From NCBI GenBank assembly GCA_026984915.1, contig JALSRG010000124.1, positions 35,191 through 99,190 of the forward strand: a stretch of 64,000 nucleotides of DNA, in the 5' to 3' direction. Each line of letters opens with the position of its first letter. The stretch's first letter is position 1. Under the pieces are notes generated by a model. It was not told where the DNA came from. It ran no database searches and was given only the letters and a program-made list of their open reading frames with translations. The translations under genes were made by a program, and so were the position numbers. This DNA comes from Marinosulfonomonas sp. (lineage in GTDB: Bacteria; Pseudomonadota; Alphaproteobacteria; Rhodobacterales; Rhodobacteraceae). This document shows positions 36,354-50,977 of this stretch, in pieces.

Positions 36354-38018
36354 ATGCAAGCCAGAAACATCCTTTTCATCATGTTTGATCAGCTGCGGTT
36401 TGATTATCTCGGCTGCACGGGTCATCCCTATCTGCACACGCCCAATATAGACCGTCTGGCAGCCCGGGGCCTGCGTTTCAGCAATGCTTACGTTCAATCG
36501 CCGATTTGTGGTGCCAGCCGCATGAGCACCTACACCGGACGATATACAAGCAGCCACGGCGCCCAATGGAATGGCTTTCCCCTGCGGGTCGGGGAAATGA
36601 CGCTGGGGGATCATTTGCGCCCCCTGGGCATGGATTGCTGGCTGATCGGCAAGACCCATATGCGGGTGGACAAGGCCGGAATGGAACGGTTGGGGCTTGG
36701 CCCCGACACGGTGATCGGCGCACGTCAGGCGGAATGCGGTTTTGATGTCTGGTGTCGTGATGACGGGTTATGGGCTCAAGGCCCGGACGGATTTTATGAC
36801 GAGAACCGCTCACCGTACAACGAATACCTGAAATCGCGCGGTTATCCGGGGGAAAACCCCTGGGCGGACTTTGCCAATGCCGCCGATGAAGGCGGAAATC
36901 TGGCGTCTGGCTGGTTTATGAAGAATGCCGACAAACCTGCCAATATCGCCGAGAAAGACAGCGAAACACCCTGGCTGACCCGTGAGGCCATGAAGTTCAT
37001 TTCCCAAGCGCAAACGCCGTGGTGTGCGCATCTGTCCTATATCAAACCGCATTGGCCCTATATCGTTCCGGCCCCCTACAACGACATGTTTGGCCCGGAA
37101 CATGTACTGCCGGCCCGTCGCGATGTGCGCGAGCAACAAAACCCGCACCCTGTCTACAAGGCCTTTATGGATAATCCGATTGGCCAGGCCTTTTCGCGTG
37201 ACGAAGTGCGTGCGCGGGTTATCCCGGCCTATATGGGGCTGATCAAACAGGCGGACGACCAGATGGGAAAACTGTTCGCATTTCTGGAAGAAACCGGACG
37301 AATGGAAGATACGGTCATTGTTCTGACGTCAGATCATGGCGACTATCTGGGAGACCATTGGCTGGGTGAGAAAGACCTGTTCCATGCGCCGTCCGTGAAA
37401 GTGCCGCTTATCATCTATGACCCGTCAGAAAGGGCAGATGCCAGCCGGGGCACGACCTGTGACGCGCTGGTTGAATCGATCGACATTGCCGCAACTTTTG
37501 TTGAAATTGCCGGTGGGAAAGTTCCCGAACACATCATTGAAGGGCGCTCGTTATTACCCTTTCTGCAGGCTACCCCGCCGGAAAACTGGCGCGAATTTGC
37601 CGTCAGCGAATATGATTATTCGGCAACGGGAATCGCTGAAAAACTGGGGGTGCAGCCCAGTGATGCGCGCTTGGTGATGATCACCGACAAACGTTGGAAA
37701 TTCATTCATGCCGAGGGCGGATTTCGCCCGATGCTGTTTGATCTGGAGAGTGATCCTGACGAATTTGTCGATCTGGGGGACAGCGCCGACCACAAGGCAA
37801 TCATTGCGATGATGCGCGAGCGGCTGTGCAAATGGGCCCGCCGCATGTCCCAGCGCGTGACAATATCCGATGACCAGATCGCCCGTGGACGCAGTGCCTC
37901 TGATTACAAGGGTATTCTTCTGGGCATTTTTGAGGAAGAGGATTGTGCGCCCGAGAAAACAGCCAGATACCGTGGCCCTGTACCAAGTGGCCCCATACCA
38001 AAAGGACGGCCGGAATGA
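36354..38018 (+). CDS. Sulfatase-superfamily hydrolase (alkaline phosphatase fold)
   Basis: 554 aa. Metal ligands DQ (residues 12-13) and TSDHGDYLGDH, with the nucleophile motif CGASRMSTYTGRY at Cys52, a C-x-A-x-R formylglycine-type site. It resembles phosphonate monoester hydrolases and choline-sulfatase-like enzymes in length and in the NxDQxRxDxLG opening. The Cys implies maturation by a formylglycine-generating enzyme not present in the window. No signal peptide is seen, so it is cytoplasmic. ATG at 36354 is preferred over the GTG at 36330; the 3' end overlaps the next gene by 4 nt. Confidence 0.88.
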   Translation: MQARNILFIMFDQLRFDYLGCTGHPYLHTPNIDRLAARGLRFSNAYVQSPICGASRMSTYTGRYTSSHGAQWNGFPLRVGEMTLGDHLRPLGMDCWLIGKTHMRVDKAGMERLGLGPDTVIGARQAECGFDVWCRDDGLWAQGPDGFYDENRSPYNEYLKSRGYPGENPWADFANAADEGGNLASGWFMKNADKPANIAEKDSETPWLTREAMKFISQAQTPWCAHLSYIKPHWPYIVPAPYNDMFGPEHVLPARRDVREQQNPHPVYKAFMDNPIGQAFSRDEVRARVIPAYMGLIKQADDQMGKLFAFLEETGRMEDTVIVLTSDHGDYLGDHWLGEKDLFHAPSVKVPLIIYDPSERADASRGTTCDALVESIDIAATFVEIAGGKVPEHIIEGRSLLPFLQATPPENWREFAVSEYDYSATGIAEKLGVQPSDARLVMITDKRWKFIHAEGGFRPMLFDLESDPDEFVDLGDSADHKAIIAMMRERLCKWARRMSQRVTISDDQIARGRSASDYKGILLGIFEEEDCAPEKTARYRGPVPSGPIPKGRPE

Positions 38019-42096: not shown

Positions 42097-42735
42097 TCAA
42101 GCAGCGTTGCTGAATTCCGGCTGCGCAAAGACGTCATGCTTGATTCCGGAGAAGGCGCGAATACTTTCGATGCGTTCCCTGGAGCAATCCATCAGGGCAG
42201 CAAGTGCTGTCACTTTGCCCATGGGCTTTGGGGATCCGAGATATCCATGCGGCGCATTGCCAGACCGTTTCAACACACGATCCATAATCGGATCAATGAC
42301 GGCGACGGCATCTTTCACACCTGCTTTCATAGCGTATTCAAAGGCACCAATCATGACCTCGCTGGTCACGTAAGAGATTGAGCGTTTCTCTTTCCCGCGC
42401 GTAAGTCTTTGAGTGTCAACACAAAAACGGGTGGCCTCCCAGATGGTGCTGCTGCGCAAAGGCGGTTCTCCATCCAGCAGTGGTGAGAATATATCGCTTA
42501 GCATATGCGGACCCGTGGTCTGAAGAAGCCGCATGCAGCCAACAACATGGCCCTCCTCGTCGACACTGATGACATGTGCTGGATCAAGATCGTCGAACAG
42601 ATCTGTTTCGCGCCCGTTTACAACGGAAACATCCCATCCCAAACGGTCCTTGAAAACCCGTGCCCGCAGACGGAACATTCCATCCAGCAGTTCCGGAAAC
42701 TCGTGCTTGTTTAGTGAATCAACAATAATAATCAT
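42097..42735 (-). CDS. luxI: Acyl-homoserine-lactone synthase LuxI family
   Basis: 212 aa AHL synthase using S-adenosylmethionine and an acyl donor. All signature residues are at family-standard numbers: Arg24, Phe28 and Trp34 in FRLRARVFKDRLGWD, Asp45 and Asp48 in ETDLFDDLD, Arg69 in GCMRLLQ, and Glu100/Arg103 in WEATRF. The start at 42735 has AGGGGA upstream. The sequence cannot tell the acyl chain length. It follows luxR on the same strand across a 97-bp gap that contains a palindrome. Confidence 0.96.
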   Translation of the reverse strand: MIIIVDSLNKHEFPELLDGMFRLRARVFKDRLGWDVSVVNGRETDLFDDLDPAHVISVDEEGHVVGCMRLLQTTGPHMLSDIFSPLLDGEPPLRSSTIWEATRFCVDTQRLTRGKEKRSISYVTSEVMIGAFEYAMKAGVKDAVAVIDPIMDRVLKRSGNAPHGYLGSPKPMGKVTALAALMDCSRERIESIRAFSGIKHDVFAQPEFSNAA

Positions 42736-42792
42736 AACATTTCCCCTATTGTTTCTAATTTGCACTGTCGGAAAAAATGCCGTTAACTTCTA

Positions 42793-42832: not shown

Positions 42833-43534
42833 CTATTTCGGGTAGATCAGGCCCAGCCCAATGGCGCGGCCAACAGCCTGAACCGAGGTCAGGGCCCCAA
42901 GTTTTTCGCGGGCAGAACGAAGATGAACTTCTACCGTACGATTGGAGATCAGCAGAATGTCGCCGATATCCTGTTGGGTTTTTCCCGCAGCTACCCATTG
43001 CAGGACTTCGCGCTCCCGCGCGGAAAGTTTAGGTTGACGCAATGCGCGGGAAAGGACATCGGATTGCATGACAGCATCATGCATATGAACCGCTGCCATC
43101 TGCAGTTCCGCGATTATCTCCGGAATAAGGGCAGACCATTCCGTATCAGAGCACTTGCGCGTGACACTGAGAAGGCCGCGATCTCCGTATGGCCCCCGAA
43201 CCGGGACCGTAATACCTTTGTTGGCGATACCAAAATCATGGGCCGCAAAAAAGACGGCCTTGAATCTCTCATCCCGCTCAAAACGCGACCAATCGACGGG
43301 CGCGATGCTCAGCGCTGCCTTGTGAATTGTGGGGTCAATGTGGTGCAGGTTCCGACGCATGTAATGCATCTTCCATTCATCCGGATAGTTGGCATACCCC
43401 TGAACGGCCCCCGTTACCGGGTTGGAAGTGGCATAGGATCCGCTGTCCAGTCCAAGCTGCTCGCACAGTTGATCCAGAAAATTGAGACAGTGCTCAGGAC
43501 TGCTTTCGACCGTACTGAGGTCTATCAGATCCAT
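42833..43534 (-). CDS. luxR: LuxR family AHL-responsive transcriptional regulator
   Basis: 233 aa canonical quorum-sensing regulator. The N-terminal autoinducer domain keeps Trp54, Tyr58, Asp67 and Trp82, spaced 4-9-15 exactly as Trp57/Tyr61/Asp70/Trp85 of TraR. The C-terminal LuxR helix-turn-helix starts at LSAREREVLQWVAAGKTQQD and continues ISNRTVEVHLRSAREKL. GAGGAG precedes the start. Probable direct partner of the adjacent luxI. A CGAAAT/ATTTCG hairpin overlaps its stop. Confidence 0.94.
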   Translation of the reverse strand: MDLIDLSTVESSPEHCLNFLDQLCEQLGLDSGSYATSNPVTGAVQGYANYPDEWKMHYMRRNLHHIDPTIHKAALSIAPVDWSRFERDERFKAVFFAAHDFGIANKGITVPVRGPYGDRGLLSVTRKCSDTEWSALIPEIIAELQMAAVHMHDAVMQSDVLSRALRQPKLSAREREVLQWVAAGKTQQDIGDILLISNRTVEVHLRSAREKLGALTSVQAVGRAIGLGLIYPK

Positions 43535-43575: not shown

Positions 43576-44196
43576 TTAAAGAAGGCCCTTGCGTGATGCA
43601 AGTGATGCGGCCTGGGCGGCTGTTTTGGCCCCCATTTTCTTGATTGAGCCTTTCAACCGTGCTTTTACCGCGCTTTGGGAAATTCCCAGTTCATAAGCAA
43701 TCTGTTTTTGCCGCATACCGGCGGCCAACAGACGCAGCGCATCGATTTGCGCGGCGGTCAGGGTTCCCTCCTGCACGGAGAAATTATTGTGATCTGCCGT
43801 CAATTCCGCAAAAAGTTCGGTCATTTCATCATCGGTGAATTCCCGGTCCTCACGCGCAAAAAAGCCGAAACTGCGCATCGGGTGCTTTTCCTGTCCGGGA
43901 ATGCTTATAACCACGCCGAACAGCAGTCCGTATTCGCGGTATGATTTCAGGATACCGCTCTTGTCATTTTCAGTCAGGTCGCTCCATTTTGCCATTCCGC
44001 CATTGTTGAAAGCCCACTGCATAAGAGGGTCTTCAAGGGCCAGGCCCCGAATCGTGTACTCTTCGATCCATTTCAGGGGAAAGGTGTTCAGTTCTTCTTC
44101 TGGTGCATAAAAGCCCAAACGCAACGCTATATAACACCCCGCAGGGCACATTTTAGAGTAACTTTGCTCCCATCTTGAGCGTAACGTATTAGACAT
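43576..44196 (-). CDS. Second LuxR family regulator, short form
   Basis: 206 aa. The autoinducer domain is shorter at the N terminus than in the neighbouring LuxR but keeps Trp43, Tyr47, Asp56 and Trp71 with the 4-9-15 spacing. The helix-turn-helix is LTAAQIDALRLLAAGMRQKQ, then IAYELGISQSAVKARLKGSI. It is only distantly similar to the other LuxR and therefore may sense another AHL or act as a modulator. Its ATG overlaps, on the opposite strand, the ATG of the HTH-less paralogue (ACATGT). Confidence 0.88.
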   Translation of the reverse strand: MSNTLRSRWEQSYSKMCPAGCYIALRLGFYAPEEELNTFPLKWIEEYTIRGLALEDPLMQWAFNNGGMAKWSDLTENDKSGILKSYREYGLLFGVVISIPGQEKHPMRSFGFFAREDREFTDDEMTELFAELTADHNNFSVQEGTLTAAQIDALRLLAAGMRQKQIAYELGISQSAVKARLKGSIKKMGAKTAAQAASLASRKGLL

Positions 44197-44734
44197 GTCT
44201 ACTTTTCTTGACTATTCTACCGTGGAACTTGGGTACGGTCTTTACATGAAACAACCACAAGAGATAAGTGATCTTTTGCAGCGTATGGTTGCATCAGCCG
44301 AATGGGTCTTCGCTATTGGTGTTAGAATTCGTTTTAACAATCCGACTCTTTTATTTCGTACATACCCAGAACTGTGGATAGAGCACTACGATAAAAATGG
44401 CCTGCTATTCAAGGACCCTACCGTGCGTTGGGGGCTGATGAATACCGGAATGTGCGATTGGGAAGACCTGAAAGATGGTGATGCACACGGGGTTCTTGAG
44501 GAAGCCGCAGGATTTGGTTTGAAGTTTGGCATTGCGATATCCACTGGAGATGCAGCAGAGCGAACACTTGGCTATTTTGCCAGGGGCACAGAGCCATTTA
44601 GCGAGGATGAAAAGCAACGTGCACAGGGGTTTGTGCAGGAGTTGCACGATTTTACGGCCGGGCTGACTGAACTGCCGGCAGAAAAGCTGGCAGCCTATCG
44701 CGTGCTGGGAGAGGCATTGAAACAGACGGTATAG
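44195..44734 (+). CDS. LuxR-type AHL-binding-domain protein lacking the DNA-binding domain
   Basis: 179 aa from the first ATG; an internal ATG at 44246 (residue 18) may be the true start since neither has a good ribosome binding site. Residues 58-119 align without gaps to residues 40-101 of the adjacent short LuxR (25 identities in 62 columns by hand count). The AHL pocket set Trp61, Tyr65, Asp74, Trp89 is intact with 4-9-15 spacing. The protein stops after EKLAAYRVLGEALKQTV, which lines up with QIDALRLLAAGMRQKQ, the first helix of the HTH, so DNA binding is lost precisely. Lower GC than its neighbours, especially the first 250 nt. By analogy with Agrobacterium TrlR it may be an anti-activator or AHL sponge. 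Confidence 0.8.
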   Translation: MSTFLDYSTVELGYGLYMKQPQEISDLLQRMVASAEWVFAIGVRIRFNNPTLLFRTYPELWIEHYDKNGLLFKDPTVRWGLMNTGMCDWEDLKDGDAHGVLEEAAGFGLKFGIAISTGDAAERTLGYFARGTEPFSEDEKQRAQGFVQELHDFTAGLTELPAEKLAAYRVLGEALKQTV

Positions 44735-44754: not shown

Positions 44755-45933
44755 TTATGCGACGTCTGCCTTCAGCCGGTTTCCGGTGCGCCAGGCCCCC
44801 TTCAGAAACAGATTGTTGCCCAGATGAACAAAGTCTGCCCGTGCACCGGGCTGTAATGTGCCAAATTCGGGTGCTCTTCCCAGGATATGGGCCGGAATGC
44901 GGGTCGCCATTGCCAGGGCGCGGTCAGTTGTGACACCAACCTGTTCAACCATGACCTGAACGGCCCGGGGCATGTCCAGATCGGCACCCGCCAGTGTACC
45001 GTCCTCCAGCGTCAACCGCCCCCCGCGGCGGTAAATGGTGCGTCCGTTCAGTGTAAATTCCGTCAGGTCAGTCCCTGCTGCCGCCATGGAATCCGTTACC
45101 AGAAAAACAGCGCCCGGGCCGGTTTTTCCATGCAGAGCCGCGCGGATGGTTGCCGGATGAACGTGAATTCCGTCTGCAATCAGACCGGCGTTCATGGCCC
45201 CCAGATCGAGAGCCGCGCCAACCAGCCCCGGTGCCCGGCTGGTCAGTTGGCTCATGGCATTGAAGAGATGCGTTGCACAACGCGCCCCATTTGCAACTGC
45301 GTCACGACATGCCTGGTAGTCTGCGTCGGTATGTCCCAGCGAAACCAGTATGCCAGCCGCTGCAAGTTCGCCGATCTGCTCGGGCGTAACCGATTCGGGG
45401 GCGACCGTTACCATCAGGTTTGGCAGTGCAAGTGCAGCCTGTTGCAGCATTTCCATGTCTTCAGTTTCCATCGGGCGAATGAGGCCCGGATCATGCGCGC
45501 CTTTGCGCGCAAGAGAAAGATGTGGCCCTTCCAGATGCAGCCCCAGGATGCCCGGAACCCCCTCGGCAATTGCCTCTGCGACTGCAACGATAGCCGCTTG
45601 CGTCCTGTCGCGCGTATCGGTGATCAGGGTTGGCAACAATGCGGTTGTACCATTATCCGCATGCGCATTTACGATCCTGCGCAGGCAATCGACGGATTGC
45701 TCTTCGTTGAAAAGTATTCCACCGCCGCCGTTTACTTGCAGGTCTACGAATCCGGGGGCGATTATGCCCCCTTGCAAATCCACGGCTTCTGCCCCCTTGG
45801 GAATGGCTTTCCTTGGAACAATGGCCTTCACGCGCCCAGCCAAAACGAGCAGGGCAGCATCGGTGTGCCGTTCTCTGCCATCGAATATATCGACACCGGA
45901 AAAAGCGGTCAGAGAGCTATTGGTTTCGGTCAT
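44755..45933 (-). CDS. nagA: N-acetylglucosamine-6-phosphate deacetylase
   Basis: 392 aa amidohydrolase producing glucosamine-6-phosphate. PGFVDLQVNGGGGILFN, LGLHLEGPHLSLARKGAH (metal Glu), VSLGHTDAD, THLFNAMSQL, ADGIHVHP and VTDSMAAAG (catalytic Asp) give a complete active site. It is the last gene of the kinase-gntR-SIS-nagA operon (4-nt overlap with the SIS gene) and ends 20 bp from the HTH-less LuxR gene, which is convergent. Confidence 0.95.
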   Translation of the reverse strand: MTETNSSLTAFSGVDIFDGRERHTDAALLVLAGRVKAIVPRKAIPKGAEAVDLQGGIIAPGFVDLQVNGGGGILFNEEQSVDCLRRIVNAHADNGTTALLPTLITDTRDRTQAAIVAVAEAIAEGVPGILGLHLEGPHLSLARKGAHDPGLIRPMETEDMEMLQQAALALPNLMVTVAPESVTPEQIGELAAAGILVSLGHTDADYQACRDAVANGARCATHLFNAMSQLTSRAPGLVGAALDLGAMNAGLIADGIHVHPATIRAALHGKTGPGAVFLVTDSMAAAGTDLTEFTLNGRTIYRRGGRLTLEDGTLAGADLDMPRAVQVMVEQVGVTTDRALAMATRIPAHILGRAPEFGTLQPGARADFVHLGNNLFLKGAWRTGNRLKADVA

Positions 45934-46952
45934 AGGGTTTCTGTCACCTTCTTCAAATGTCTCGGAGTGTCAGGATTGATCCCGCGGGCCCGCGCGACAC
46001 GTTCAACCATTGCATAAAATGACACAATCAGGGCAAGCGGGTCGGTCAGCGGATGACCGGTGCGCACGCAGGGCAGTTTACAGGCATTTTTTGCCTTGTC
46101 TGATGTCACAAATACCGTGGCTCCCTTGGTTGCAATCTGATCGGCCACTTCAACAAGCGCCGCTTCGGCGGCATCTTTTGCGGCAAGCGCCAGAGTCGGG
46201 AACCCTTTGCCAACGATCGAAACCGGCCCGTGCAGGACCTCTGCGGAAGAATAGGATTCTGCATGTATCTGGCAGGTTTCCTTGAATTTCAACGCCGCTT
46301 CGTTGGAAATGGCAAAACCCGGGCCGCGCCCGAGAGTATATAGGGAATCGTGTCCGGCAACGGCATTGCGCAATTCCGGCCAGTCAATTTCAGCCGCGCG
46401 TGACAACGCTTCGGGCAGTGCATGAATAGCGTTGCGCAACGCGCTGTCGCCCTTCCATTCCGCCAGCAACAACAGACCTGCGACTGCGGAATTCACAAAT
46501 GTCTTGGTTGCCGCAACGCTGCGCTCGGGTCCGGCGTGGATATTCAGCGTATATGTGCAGGTTTGCGCCAAGGGTGACGCCGGATCATTGGTAAGGGCAA
46601 AAGACAAAGCCCCGGCTGTTTTGCCGGCACGCGCCATTTCAACGATATCCGGGCTTTGCCCCGATTGTGAAACCACGATGACGGCAGCCGAATTCAGGTG
46701 TAAGGGTGCGTGGTAAATCGAAGCAACCGAAGGTCCGACAGAGGCCATGGGAATCCCCAGCAAGAGCTCGCTTGCATATTTCAGGTAGGTCGCAACATGG
46801 TCTGATGAACCGCGGGCAACAGAAACCAGAAATGCCGGGCCGAGATCCGCCAGCGCTTTGCCGCCAGCGATAATGTCGATTGTTCCATTATGCAAAAGCC
46901 GTTCGACTGAGTCGGGTATTTCCAGCACTTCCGCGCGCATCCTTGTTTGCAT
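45930..46952 (-). CDS. SIS-domain aminosugar isomerase/deaminase
   Basis: 340 aa with two SIS domains, similar to the isomerase half of GlmS and to NagB-II/AgaS-type deaminases. The first has SVARGSSDHVATYLKYASE and VVSQSGQSPDIVEMAR; the second YTLGRGPGFAISNEAALKFKE and EVLHGPVSIV. With no NagB in the cluster it is the likely glucosamine-6-phosphate deaminase feeding fructose-6-phosphate. Overlaps gntR by 1 nt and nagA by 4 nt. Confidence 0.9.
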   Translation of the reverse strand: MQTRMRAEVLEIPDSVERLLHNGTIDIIAGGKALADLGPAFLVSVARGSSDHVATYLKYASELLLGIPMASVGPSVASIYHAPLHLNSAAVIVVSQSGQSPDIVEMARAGKTAGALSFALTNDPASPLAQTCTYTLNIHAGPERSVAATKTFVNSAVAGLLLLAEWKGDSALRNAIHALPEALSRAAEIDWPELRNAVAGHDSLYTLGRGPGFAISNEAALKFKETCQIHAESYSSAEVLHGPVSIVGKGFPTLALAAKDAAEAALVEVADQIATKGATVFVTSDKAKNACKLPCVRTGHPLTDPLALIVSFYAMVERVARARGINPDTPRHLKKVTETL

Positions 46953-47737
46953 CAGATGTGTGCCCCTTTGCTTTGCGGTGCATTCTTCAGGCGCAGTTCG
47001 GCGACAAAATCATAGGCGTCGCCACGATAGATAGAGCGCGTGAATTCGACAACCCGGCCGCCGGGAAGATATGATGTGCGTTCTATTCTCAACCCTGCCG
47101 AGCCGGGCTTTTCGTGCAGCAGTTCCGCGTCGTGCGCTGACATGTTGATGGCAGAAATTCTCTGCACCGCCCGGACCGGCCGGTTCCCCAGCTTTTCCAG
47201 GGCTTCATACAATGATCGTACGACCATTTCGGGGTCTGGCAAAAGATCGACTGGCAGAGATGCCCGCTCGACAGCCATCGGCTGATCATCCGCCATCCGA
47301 AGGCGCGAAAGACGCGCAACAGAATGATCTGCGCCAAGGCCAAGCGCGACGACTTCTTCGGGCGAGGGCATAAAGGTGCCGCGCTCCAGCCATTGGGAAT
47401 GAGAAGCCATGCCGCGGCGCGCCATGTCCTCGGTGAATGAGGTAAGGCGGGAAAGGGACTGCTCGACTTTCTGCACACGGGGTGCGACGAAAGAACCCGA
47501 CCCCTGCCTCTGTACGATCTTGCCTTCGGCGGCCAAGGCCTGAATGGCCTTGCGGACCGTGACGCGCGATAAATTGGTCAGAGTGGCAATGTCGCGTTCT
47601 GGCGGCAAAGGGGAATCCGGGGGCAACTGACCGGAATCTATGCCGGATTGAAGTCGCCTGCGCAATTGCACATAGCGGGGGCCATTGTCGCGCGAAAGCC
47701 AGTTCTCGGGGTTCAGGAAGGTGCGGATATCCGTCAT
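46952..47737 (-). CDS. GntR family regulator with UTRA domain
   Basis: 261 aa HutC-type repressor. The winged helix is PPERDIATLTNLSRVTVRKA followed by LAAEGKIVQRQGSGSFVAP. The C-terminal UTRA domain has EEVVALGLGADHSVARLSRL and GLRIERTSYLPGGRVVEF. It is the likely controller of this amino-sugar regulon (NagR-like), sensing a phosphorylated amino sugar. I start it at 47737, inside the 3' end of the kinase gene (4-nt overlap); longer frames are antisense to nothing but not family-like. Confidence 0.93.
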   Translation of the reverse strand: MTDIRTFLNPENWLSRDNGPRYVQLRRRLQSGIDSGQLPPDSPLPPERDIATLTNLSRVTVRKAIQALAAEGKIVQRQGSGSFVAPRVQKVEQSLSRLTSFTEDMARRGMASHSQWLERGTFMPSPEEVVALGLGADHSVARLSRLRMADDQPMAVERASLPVDLLPDPEMVVRSLYEALEKLGNRPVRAVQRISAINMSAHDAELLHEKPGSAGLRIERTSYLPGGRVVEFTRSIYRGDAYDFVAELRLKNAPQSKGAHI

Positions 47738-48627
47738 GGTGCTGCCTCTGGTCGGGATTGCACCCGCGCAGCTAACAATAGTGCCCCGTCCAGCGCCCCG
47801 CCTTTGGCCGGGGTCAAACAGTCGCGCAGGAGCTTTGGTAGAAACGGCGCATAATGTGGCCCCAGCCCGCCAGTCAGGCAAAGCGGTTCATTTGCGTTCC
47901 GGTCAAGCGTGGACAGGGCCCGTTCAATATAATGGGCACCCTCAGACATCAGTGACAATGCGAATCTATCCCCGGTTTCGGCAGATCTGACAATGGAGGG
48001 GGCAAACCGTGCCAGTTCCGCAGGCGTTGCCTTTTGCGAAAATGCAGACAGGGAAACCGCATCATCGGCAAATTCGGCCAGTGTTTGTTCAATGATCGGG
48101 GTCGGAGGCTCTAGCCCGTCAAAACACAACAATGCCTGCGTAAGCAGGGAGCGCCCCAGCCAGGCGCCCGAAGCCTGATCGCCCGCCACCGCGCCCCATC
48201 CGCCCACATATCGGGTTTGGCCCCGCTCCCGAACAAAGCGGGCCAAGAACGAGCCGGTGCCAATGGCGGCAACGCTTCCGGATGACCCGTTCAAAGCGCC
48301 CAGAACTGTTGCTTCGCGATCTTCGCAAACCTCTGCAATCCCGACCGGCAAAGCCTTGCGGATCGGGGCCGCTGTTTCTTCGGACTGGACACCGGCAAGC
48401 CCAACATGCGCGCGCGCCGTACTCAGGGCGGAAACCGAAATAGCGGATTTTGCCCGCGCTTCCTCTAATGCCGCAAGGATATTGTGTATCGTGGCAGTCA
48501 TATCCGTGGTGGCATTGGCCGGCCCGCCTTTGCCGATGCCCCGCAGCTTACCATCAACAGCGATGGCCGCACGGCATCCAGTGCCGCCGCCATCTATCCC
48601 GACAAGAATATTTTTTGACTCTACCAT
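47734..48627 (-). CDS. BadF/BadG-type N-acetylhexosamine kinase
   Basis: 297 aa ASKHA-fold kinase. Phosphate-1 motif VGIDGGGTGCRAAIA, phosphate-2 SVAAIGTGSFLARF and adenosine motif LTGGLGPHYAPFLP. This family includes N-acetylglucosamine kinases and MurK, which phosphorylates both GlcNAc and MurNAc. Next to murQ and nagA it probably makes GlcNAc-6-P and/or MurNAc-6-P. First gene of the minus operon. Confidence 0.9.
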   Translation of the reverse strand: MVESKNILVGIDGGGTGCRAAIAVDGKLRGIGKGGPANATTDMTATIHNILAALEEARAKSAISVSALSTARAHVGLAGVQSEETAAPIRKALPVGIAEVCEDREATVLGALNGSSGSVAAIGTGSFLARFVRERGQTRYVGGWGAVAGDQASGAWLGRSLLTQALLCFDGLEPPTPIIEQTLAEFADDAVSLSAFSQKATPAELARFAPSIVRSAETGDRFALSLMSEGAHYIERALSTLDRNANEPLCLTGGLGPHYAPFLPKLLRDCLTPAKGGALDGALLLAARVQSRPEAAP

Positions 48628-48631
48628 TTAG

Positions 48632-48648
48632 ATACCTTTTCAATACCT
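48632..48648 (-). promoter_or_regulatory. Operator-like site A ahead of the kinase gene
   Basis: On the minus strand reads AGGTATTGAAAAGGTAT, two GGTAT half-sites 11 bp apart. It lies just upstream of the kinase ATG (48627). Sixteen of 17 bases match site B at 48726-48742, which faces the opposite way toward murQ. Likely binding site for the GntR regulator of the cluster (inference). Confidence 0.6.
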
Positions 48649-48725
48649 TTATCGAAATATTGCGGCAAGGCAAGCTACATTTCTAGGCTAACCCTTTTTG
48701 TAATGTAAAGAAAGATATGGACAAT

Positions 48726-48742
48726 AGGTATTAAAAAGGTAT
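48726..48742 (+). promoter_or_regulatory. Operator-like site B ahead of murQ
   Basis: AGGTATTAAAAAGGTAT, 16 of 17 bases identical to site A in reverse orientation, about 30 nt ahead of the murQ start. The two sites flank the divergent promoter region and would let one regulator control both arms. Confidence 0.6.
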
Positions 48743-48769
48743 TCTTTCAAAAAACACAGGGGGAATCAC

Positions 48770-49684
48770 GTGGCCGCGCCATTGACGGAAACGCCGTATA
48801 TTTCTGCCAAAGGGTTAGAGACGTTATCCGACACCGCAATTCTTCAGCTTGTTCTTGAGGGGCAGAGCTTGGCTTTGGATTCCGTCCGCAGAAGCTATGA
48901 AACCATTGCCATGGCCGCAGCGGTCATGGCCGACGCCATCCGTGATGGCAGGGTTTTGCACTATGTCGCGGCAGGGTCTTCAGCGCTTATGGCAATTTCC
49001 GACGGGCTGGAACTGGAAGGTACTTTCGGCATCGAACGGGCGCAGGTGCGGCTTTGGATGGCGGGTGGCATTCCGACAAAAACCGGCATGCCTGGTCATG
49101 TGGAGGATGATGAGGCGGCCGCTGCGGTAGTTGTGTCGTCAATCGCTGCCGGTGACGTCGTCATTGCCGTAACGGCGAGTGGCTCGACCCCCTACACCTG
49201 TGCGTCCGCACGGCTCGCACAGGCAAAAGGTGCTACTTGTATTGCGATTGCAAATGTACCGGATGCCAAGGTTTTCGATTGGGCTGACATTTCTGTTTGC
49301 CTGCCAACACCACCAGAGATTATTGCCGGATCAACCCGCTTGGGGGCTGCGACTGCGCAAAAGGCGGCTTTGAACATGATGTCCACCCTGATGGGGATAC
49401 GCCTGGGGCATGTGTACGACAGCAGGATGGTGAATTTACAGGCGGACAATGAAAAATTGCACAACCGTGCCCGAACAATGATTGCCGACATCACCGGCGT
49501 TAGCGCGGATGACGCCTCGATTTATCTTGCAAAATCCGGGTATTCGGTGAAATCGGCGATTTTGCTGGCTTCGGGTGTTGCAACGCTGGAAGACGCCAAC
49601 GCGAGGCTGAGAGAGGTCGGGGGCGACCTGCACGCGGCCCTTCAGTGGAGTAGCGACACTCGGAACCGAAGTGAGAACAGATGA
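48770..49684 (+). CDS. murQ: N-acetylmuramic acid 6-phosphate etherase MurQ
   Basis: 304 aa SIS-fold enzyme cleaving the lactyl ether of MurNAc-6-P to give GlcNAc-6-P, the NagA substrate. VTASGSTPYTCASARLAQAK, CLPTPPEIIAGSTRLGAATAQK, LNMMSTLMGIRLGHVYDSRMVNL and KSAILLASGVATLEDA are MurQ hallmarks. GTG start with AGGGGGA upstream. It links the cluster to peptidoglycan recycling or scavenging. Confidence 0.9.
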   Translation: MAAPLTETPYISAKGLETLSDTAILQLVLEGQSLALDSVRRSYETIAMAAAVMADAIRDGRVLHYVAAGSSALMAISDGLELEGTFGIERAQVRLWMAGGIPTKTGMPGHVEDDEAAAAVVVSSIAAGDVVIAVTASGSTPYTCASARLAQAKGATCIAIANVPDAKVFDWADISVCLPTPPEIIAGSTRLGAATAQKAALNMMSTLMGIRLGHVYDSRMVNLQADNEKLHNRARTMIADITGVSADDASIYLAKSGYSVKSAILLASGVATLEDANARLREVGGDLHAALQWSSDTRNRSENR

Positions 49685-49711
49685 ATTGCGACCAACCAAA
49701 GGGAGATTGAA

Positions 49712-50977
49712 ATGAAAATGAAATACAAACTTGGGGGCCTGCTGCTGGCGGGCACCATTCTGGGTGGGGCATTGTCTGCCACCGCCGAGGAAGCAACCAT
49801 CAGCATCGAAAGCTGGCGCTCGGAAGATCTGGCCATCTGGCAGGACAAGATCATCCCGGCATTTGAGGCATCTCATCCGGGTATCAAGGTAAAGTTTACC
49901 CCGACCTCCCCGACCGAATATGATGCTTCGCTGAATTCACGCCTTGCCGGTGGCACTGCAGGTGATCTGATTACCTGCCGTCCGTTTGACCAGTCTTTGG
50001 CTGTGTACGAACAAGGAAACCTGGCTGACCTGACCAATCTGGAGGCGATGAAAAATTTTCCTGATGTGGCAAAATCCGCATGGAGCACCGATGATGGCTC
50101 GGTCACGTTCTGTGTGCCGATGGCTTCGGTCATTCACGGGTTCATCTATAACAAGGACGCTTTCAAGGAACTGGGCCTGTCGGTGCCGCAAACCGAGGAG
50201 GAATTCTTTGCGGTTCTGGATAAAATCAAGGAAGATGGGACTTATATCCCGATGGCGATGGGGACTCATGACGAATGGGAAGCCAACACCATGGGGTATT
50301 ACAACATCGGGCCGAACTACTGGAAAGGCGAGGAAGGCCGCCTGGCACTGATCAAAGGCACGCAAAAGCTGACCGACAAAGACTGGGTCGATCCTTTCCG
50401 CTCGCTGGCAAAATGGGGCGCTTATCTGGGGGACGGGTTTGAATCCCAGACTTATTCTGACAGCCAGAACCTGTTTACGCTGGGACGGGCCGCAATTTAT
50501 CCTGCCGGTTCTTGGGAAATCAGCGGTTTCAACACGCAGGCCGATTTTGCGATGGGCGCATTCAAGCCGCCAGTGCCAGTTGCCGGGCAGGATTGCTATA
50601 TTTCGGATCACACGGATATCGGAATGGGCATGAATGCAAAAACGGCGAATCCGGAGGCTGCAAAGGCTTTCCTGAACTGGATGGGTTCAGAAGAATTTGC
50701 CTCGCTATATGCCAATGCTCTGCCGGGGTTCTTTTCCCTCTCCAAGCATTCGGTCAAACTTGATGACCCGCTTGCACAGGAATTTGTCAGTTGGCGCGAA
50801 ACCTGCAAGTCGACCATTCGGCCGACCTATCAGATCCTTTCGCGCGGAACACCCAATCTGGAAACGGAAATGGGGCGGGTTTCAGCGAATGTGATCAAGG
50901 GGACTGTAACGCCAGAGGATGCGGCAGCCGAACTGCAGAAAGGCCTTGAGAGCTGGTACAAACCGCAACAGAACTGA
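49712..50977 (+). CDS. ABC transporter sugar-binding protein (CUT1 family)
   Basis: 421 aa extracellular solute-binding protein family 1. Signal peptide to about residue 25 (LLLAGTILGGALSATAE). ISIESWRSEDLAIWQDKIIPAF and a late YNIGPNYWKGEEGRL fit sugar receptors. By context the ligand is an amino sugar or muropeptide. AGGGAG precedes the ATG; 27 nt from murQ. Confidence 0.9.
   Translation: MKMKYKLGGLLLAGTILGGALSATAEEATISIESWRSEDLAIWQDKIIPAFEASHPGIKVKFTPTSPTEYDASLNSRLAGGTAGDLITCRPFDQSLAVYEQGNLADLTNLEAMKNFPDVAKSAWSTDDGSVTFCVPMASVIHGFIYNKDAFKELGLSVPQTEEEFFAVLDKIKEDGTYIPMAMGTHDEWEANTMGYYNIGPNYWKGEEGRLALIKGTQKLTDKDWVDPFRSLAKWGAYLGDGFESQTYSDSQNLFTLGRAAIYPAGSWEISGFNTQADFAMGAFKPPVPVAGQDCYISDHTDIGMGMNAKTANPEAAKAFLNWMGSEEFASLYANALPGFFSLSKHSVKLDDPLAQEFVSWRETCKSTIRPTYQILSRGTPNLETEMGRVSANVIKGTVTPEDAAAELQKGLESWYKPQQN

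Follow-up and report, generated by a model that had tools for sequence, protein, structure and literature searches.

The window, the whole 64,000-nucleotide stretch of a Marinosulfonomonas sp. contig analysed here, carries a quorum-sensing locus with the gene order cerI, cerR, cerM, all on the minus strand, followed by cerN on the plus strand (Table 1). In Pfam searches the CerN-like protein matched the autoinducer-binding domain alone (PF03472, E 3.6e-15, 56.2 bits against a cut-off of 23), with no HTH, and it counts as a LuxR-type ligand-binding-domain fold. BLASTP aligned it to its CerM-like neighbour at 32.6% identity over 141 columns; the first 82 columns are gapless and the alignment stops inside the neighbour's first HTH helix. 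A sequence-only reading of this DNA had described both an ungapped match to the neighbour's sensing domain and an end at the first helix of the DNA-binding domain, and the alignment bears it out on both points.

Table 1. Genes, intergenic gap and AHL-pocket codons of the cer locus, in window positions.
Feature	Position	Strand	Description
cerI-like AHL synthase	42097..42765	-	222 aa; PF00765, 2.6e-71
cerR-like canonical LuxR	42833..43534	-	233 aa
cerM-like gene	43576..44196	-	206 aa short LuxR: Autoind_bind + GerE HTH; Phe at Tyr53 position
Intergenic gap cerM/cerN	44197..44245	.	49 bp between divergent genes
cerN-like gene	44246..44734	+	162 aa: autoinducer-binding domain, one C-terminal helix, HTH absent
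Codon of Tyr40 (Tyr53, TraR numbering)	44363..44365	+	CerN-like pocket residue lost in CerM-like partners
Codon of Trp44 (Trp57, TraR numbering)	44375..44377	+	Pocket
Codon of Tyr48 (Tyr61, TraR numbering)	44387..44389	+	Pocket
Codon of Asp57 (Asp70, TraR numbering)	44414..44416	+	Pocket
Codon of Trp72 (Trp85, TraR numbering)	44459..44461	+	Pocket

We compared the locus with a first set of 26 loci, consisting of the window and 25 loci chosen for having two matches near each other. The open reading frame originally proposed for the cerN-like gene (44195-44734, plus strand, 179 aa) exists and is intact, but the comparison points to the ATG at 44246 as the more likely start. Among the 26 CerN-like rows, 24 have a start codon 42-45 residues ahead of the pocket Trp (22 ATG, one GTG and one TTG), the exceptions being L048 and L052, and this shared position led us to drop 44195. 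Within 75 residues the L039 gene offers no alternative start; the peptide encoded by 44195-44245 is unconserved as judged by eye. With the start moved, the overlapping start codons that had been described for these head-to-head genes turn into a 49-bp gap, a putative shared regulatory region. The CerM start codon lies within a perfect 12-bp palindrome, TAGACATGTCTA (44190-44201), which on visual inspection is not conserved in L038-L040 of the same genus. Beyond cerN, an apparent amino-sugar catabolism cluster (nagA, SIS-domain, GntR, kinase, MurQ-like and sugar-binding protein genes) occupies 44755-50977. A nagA-like gene also adjoins the cer pair in L038, and hemE lies on the opposite flank of the window cer genes.

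The claim that no HTH remnant follows the gene was confirmed: tblastn with 37 HTH queries gave no match up to E 1 in the last 60 bp of the window gene and the 700 bp downstream. The same search over the 26 loci returned matches up to E 1 in five, the best at E 0.015 over 15 residues (L057), and we count no remnant in any of the 26. As a positive control, the CerM-like HTH was recovered in 26/26 loci at E <= 3e-20 with own-locus queries left out. The C-terminal ends of the CerN-like proteins are uniform, falling 96-123 residues from W57 (W57 counted) in every locus.

The AHL pocket is intact. W44, Y48, D57 and W72 (numbered from the start at 44246) have the 4-9-15 spacing noted earlier and are invariant in a 28-sequence alignment that includes the window (A1, to which P0002 and P0003 (156 aa, without gene context) were added and from which P0004 was omitted; the protein homologue search with the window protein gave four matches, the query itself among them). 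In TraR numbering, the window protein has all of W57, Y61, D70, P71, W85 and G113, where the columns were set by motif on the window row, with that of G113 positioned by eye.

These features match a known system. In Cereibacter sphaeroides, the order cerI, cerR, cerM, cerN corresponds to RSWS8N_05830, 05825, 05820 and 05815 (PMC11655674), and the window has the same order, with cerN and cerM divergent. The setting is thus not new, contrary to what had been supposed. C. sphaeroides CerN is likewise an HTH-less Autoind_bind protein with the pocket WYDPWG, next to a short CerM-type LuxR with CerR and CerI following, and identity within both pairs is about 31%. We treat genome G054 as C. sphaeroides on account of a score fingerprint, the CerM-CerN identity and the CerM pocket. 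Its PF03472 scores (129.9/83.4/65.2/54.2/46.4/36.3) compare with published values of 128.1/77.1/66.1/51.6/47.5/38.7, its CerI score with 281.5 (282.7 here) and its CerM-CerN identity with 31% (30% here), and its CerM has the rare Phe at W57 seen in C. sphaeroides CerM; G054 yields a seventh PF03472 match (30.2 bits) against the six listed (PMC11655674). The window CerN-like and CerM-like proteins fall in the same clades as the G054 pair, grouping with the G054 and G094 proteins at supports of 100/98 and 100/99, respectively. The cerM/cerN gap is 49 bp in the window and 86 bp in G054. Judged from domain content, pocket, gene order and clade, the window gene is a predicted CerN-type quorum-sensing antagonist and the locus an ordinary cer locus.

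Phylogenetic analysis of 62 ligand-binding domains (midpoint-rooted) placed the 26 HTH-less rows in one clade (support 99/91) and the 26 CerM-like rows in another (100/100). CerN-like status had been assigned from the absent HTH match and the grouping checked afterwards; no homologue with a full HTH, which would have pointed to a recent frameshift, lies in the CerN clade of 26 rows. Because the HTH-less rows form one clade, a single loss of the HTH suffices for this set, and it likely preceded the split of the genera. The remaining 10 rows, full-length proteins that have no CerN-like gene beside them, come from 9 of 11 other stretches (L065 and L066 fell below the 40-bit cut); the midpoint root puts them on the same side as the HTH-less clade. 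These rows are short LuxR proteins of the GtaR/LuxR1 type of Rhodobacterales, from the same subfamily; the HTH-less clade is nearer to them than to CerM under this rooting, although, unlike CerN, they are full length with an HTH. For the window CerN-like protein, the full-length paralogue that its own genome carries on contig C56 gives a score of 98.7 bits, compared with 71.6 bits for the neighbour. Together with the single old clade, this speaks against the recent inverted local duplication from which the gene had been thought to arise; an old local duplication may still lie behind the pair, as the tree is midpoint-rooted only.

The pair is also conserved as a pair. Pairwise distances of the two genes correlate across the 26 loci (Mantel r 0.76, p 0.0002, 4999 permutations) and across 22 loci with near copies excluded (r 0.60). 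All but one of the 26 pairs in the first set diverge, and the chosen starts lie 49-146 bp apart (49-55 bp in the four loci of the same genus and 86-146 bp in the 21 remaining divergent ones). In 394 sampled family genomes, own genome included, we found 81 CerM-class matches in 78 (cut at 250 bits, next match at 240). At least 73 of these 81 have a divergent CerN-like gene within 200 bp (63-200 bp between matches), spread over at least 71 of the 394 genomes; three others have a CerN-like gene nearby on the same strand. For this count, 76 CerN rows were picked by eye among the matches listed and apparent full-length relatives were dropped; two CerN-like genes beside CerM matches, in L088 and L139, are additional to that list. 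A further 58 stretches, new loci forming a non-random sample selected for a CerM-class or CerN-like match, comprise 54 with both genes, three with CerM alone and one, at a contig end, with CerN alone. An ORF for LuxI lies near 22/26 first-set pairs (counted by eye) and 46/54 further pairs, and no LuxI was found in the stretch examined for 4/26 and 8/54.

By these trees and counts, the CerM/CerN pair is old and widespread in the family, occurring in about a fifth of the sampled genomes. A CerN-type gene is an already known kind; the age and spread of the pair are what is new here, and they turn a two-gene oddity of one species into a conserved receptor design. Our literature search, for which most subscription journals lay outside coverage, found no published CerM/CerN pair beyond C. 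sphaeroides. Conservation in the synteny of C. sphaeroides with D. shibae, R. capsulatus and Ruegeria KLH11 was reported for gtaR only (PMC11655674). The available portion of an article covering Roseobacter luxRI topologies (PMC3824088) mentions no HTH-less neighbour, and the accessible parts of PMC13043044, PMC6473078 and PMC13345283 name no CerM/CerN-like pair. A second published HTH-less protein is LuxB (Dshi_4067) of Dinoroseobacter shibae, which the available part of PMC4046655 describes as an autoinducer-binding domain without DNA-binding domain beside luxI3; it is plasmid-borne according to the portion available, and we liken it to CerN by this published description.

We next compared pocket residues between the two proteins. 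Tyr53, four residues ahead of W57 and counted as essential to TraR ligand binding in the accessible part of a review (PMC9654057), is kept in 76/81 CerN-like proteins (24/26 in the first set, 52/55 further), with Phe in the other five, and lost from 80/83 CerM-like proteins, mostly to Leu or Phe. The three CerM-like proteins retaining Tyr comprise 2/26 in the first set and 1/57 further; among the other full-length relatives 8/10 have it. The C. sphaeroides authors suggested W57F as a possible reason why CerM responds less strongly to AHL (PMC11655674). As a general cause this is not supported, since W57 is present in 82 of 83 CerM-like proteins (25/26 and 57/57) and Phe occurs in one first-set row and in 0/57 further ones. 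The window CerM-like protein retains W57, so its AHL affinity may differ from that of C. sphaeroides CerM. Tyr53 is not the sole pocket difference, as W85 also varies in CerM-like proteins (Trp in 76/83), and further columns besides Tyr53 separate the two groups. With Tyr53 kept in CerN and lost in CerM, CerN would be a high-affinity AHL sensor, and the residue pattern makes it likely that CerM is the weakly responding DNA-binding half. This gives a single-residue prediction, Tyr53 in CerN and Leu or Phe in CerM, for the sensing and the weakly responding partner.

The biochemistry of the C. sphaeroides proteins suggests how such a pair would work. In 2024, pull-downs showed that CerN binds CerM only with AHL, apo-CerM was found to bind DNA without ligand, and cerM mutations suppressed both cerN and cerI mutants; the regulated genes include ctrA and motility (PMC11655674). 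According to the parts of that report available, EMSA showed CerM-DNA complexes weakening when CerN was present with AHL, and in E. coli the same combination relieved a lacZ reporter of its repression by CerM. In EMSA, AHL without CerN had a similar but smaller effect on DNA binding by CerM, so CerM is not blind to AHL (PMC11655674, same parts). By analogy, the window pair quite probably acts in the same way, AHL-bound CerN freeing CerM from DNA. In this strain, the adjacent CerI-like enzyme would supply the AHL signal, the CerN-like protein would sense it with high affinity through the retained Tyr53, and the apo CerM-like protein would sit on DNA until AHL-bound CerN pairs with it and releases the DNA; ctrA and motility genes may be the targets, as in C. 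sphaeroides. We further propose, as a reading whose chances we consider evenly balanced, that CerM and CerN form an old split quorum receptor across Rhodobacteraceae. CerN would have kept the pocket Tyr and become the AHL sensor, and CerM would have lost it, binding DNA without signal and sensing AHL through CerN; loss of Tyr53, not W57F, would be the general basis of the weak CerM response.

Searches for binding sites returned little. The proposed CerM motif TNT(N5)AAGACA(N2)T has no site at the locus, and the nearest one-mismatch site in the window is at 37046. Such one-mismatch sites number 7 in the window against 5.35 expected, and exact sites number 14 genome-wide against 8 for the reversed control, which is no clear enrichment. 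Allowing up to 3 mismatches, no GtaR-type box was found in the window. Genome-wide, with up to 2 mismatches, it occurs in one place, where the GtaR-like gene of contig C56 starts (2 mismatches), and so marks that gene and not the cerM/cerN pair.

A different partner is conceivable. CerR, a full canonical LuxR, is encoded in the same locus, and the CerN-like protein could damp cerI activation by forming dead heterodimers with AHL-bound CerR, as a dominant negative. TrlR of Agrobacterium Ti plasmids is the established precedent in the published material available and, like CerN, is a LuxR-family protein without DNA-binding domain that acts AHL-dependently on a full-length relative. We regard this reading as unlikely. 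CerR lies between CerM and LuxI in 6/26 first-set loci, and an additional LuxR lies beside CerM in 3/58 further stretches, so it is CerM, not CerR, that CerN goes along with. In the available part of the C. sphaeroides report, moreover, a cerN mutant regained swimming through no luxR deletion other than that of cerM (PMC11655674). The idea of an HTH-less AHL-binding paralogue pairing with a full-length LuxR fits CerN (PMC11655674), but the parallel drawn with TrlR is imperfect, because the TraR that TrlR blocks is the ligand-activated form, whereas CerM needs no ligand to bind DNA (PMC11655674). TrlR and TraR share 88% identity; the window pair, at 32.6% and in separate clades, shows neither the recent truncation nor the near-identity to the blocked receptor that characterise TrlR.

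CerN might instead act mainly as a stabiliser that keeps CerM folded or protected, with antagonism secondary. The accessible portion of the C. sphaeroides study reports notably lower CerM in the cerN mutant, yet the residual CerM still fully repressed swimming there, and the effects of CerN with AHL on DNA binding in vitro and on reporter repression also run against stabilisation (PMC11655674). Three CerM-class genes occur without CerN in their stretches as well, and we consider a mainly stabilising role very improbable. A pure AHL sponge, titrating the signal and touching no other receptor, would suit a protein with intact pocket residues and no DNA-binding domain. The divergent CerN-like gene beside at least 73 of the 81 CerM-class matches suggests a partner, as does the correlated divergence of the two genes, though neighbours that descend together would show such a correlation too, and CerN and CerM interact directly in C. 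sphaeroides (PMC11655674); a sponge acting alone therefore seems highly improbable to us.

That the gene is a degenerate or recently truncated, functionless luxR, as the missing HTH and a GC of 49.4% against 57.9% for the window might suggest, is barely credible given the single clade, the absence of HTH remnants and the uniform C-terminal ends, the conserved pocket and the dN/dS ratios. In the closest genome pair, L039/L040, omega is 0.07 (NG86) or 0.09 (YN00) for the CerN-like gene and 0.05 or 0.045 for CerM. We relied on this pair because 7/12 same-genus comparisons were uncomputable or saturated in at least one method, with dS saturated in those involving the window; all computable same-genus values for the CerN-like gene range from 0.07 to 0.19. 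As estimated from codon substitutions, these ratios show the CerN-like gene under purifying selection, and with the single clade and no HTH remnant, a recent frameshift or pseudogene was rejected. The relaxed or foreign history once read from the lower GC fares no better: GC is below that of the own locus for CerN-like genes in 24/26 loci and, counted separately, for CerM in 24/26, and the distances of the two genes correlate across loci.

Several minor observations concern other arrangements. L137, L138 and L140 have a CerM-class gene without a CerN-like neighbour in the stretch and may be lineages in which CerM acts alone. In the own genome (G000), contig C56 (L064:9719-10333) encodes the GtaR-like short LuxR, adjoining LuxI and bearing the GtaR-type box; a third LuxR/LuxI pair lies on contig C54 and a further LuxR on C66, and a scan of the contigs gave one weak relative, left unused. 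Plasmid searches by protein returned CerN-like and full-length relatives mixed, and two plasmid records lack the pair and show lone genes of 200-207 codons. CerM and CerN are on the same strand in L062 (G097:C4), L128 (G260:C5) and L129 (G365:C11), with LuxI between them in L062 and L128, and a Qingshengfaniella alkalisoli plasmid record that matches the L062 contig in length likewise has the pair on one strand with LuxI between.
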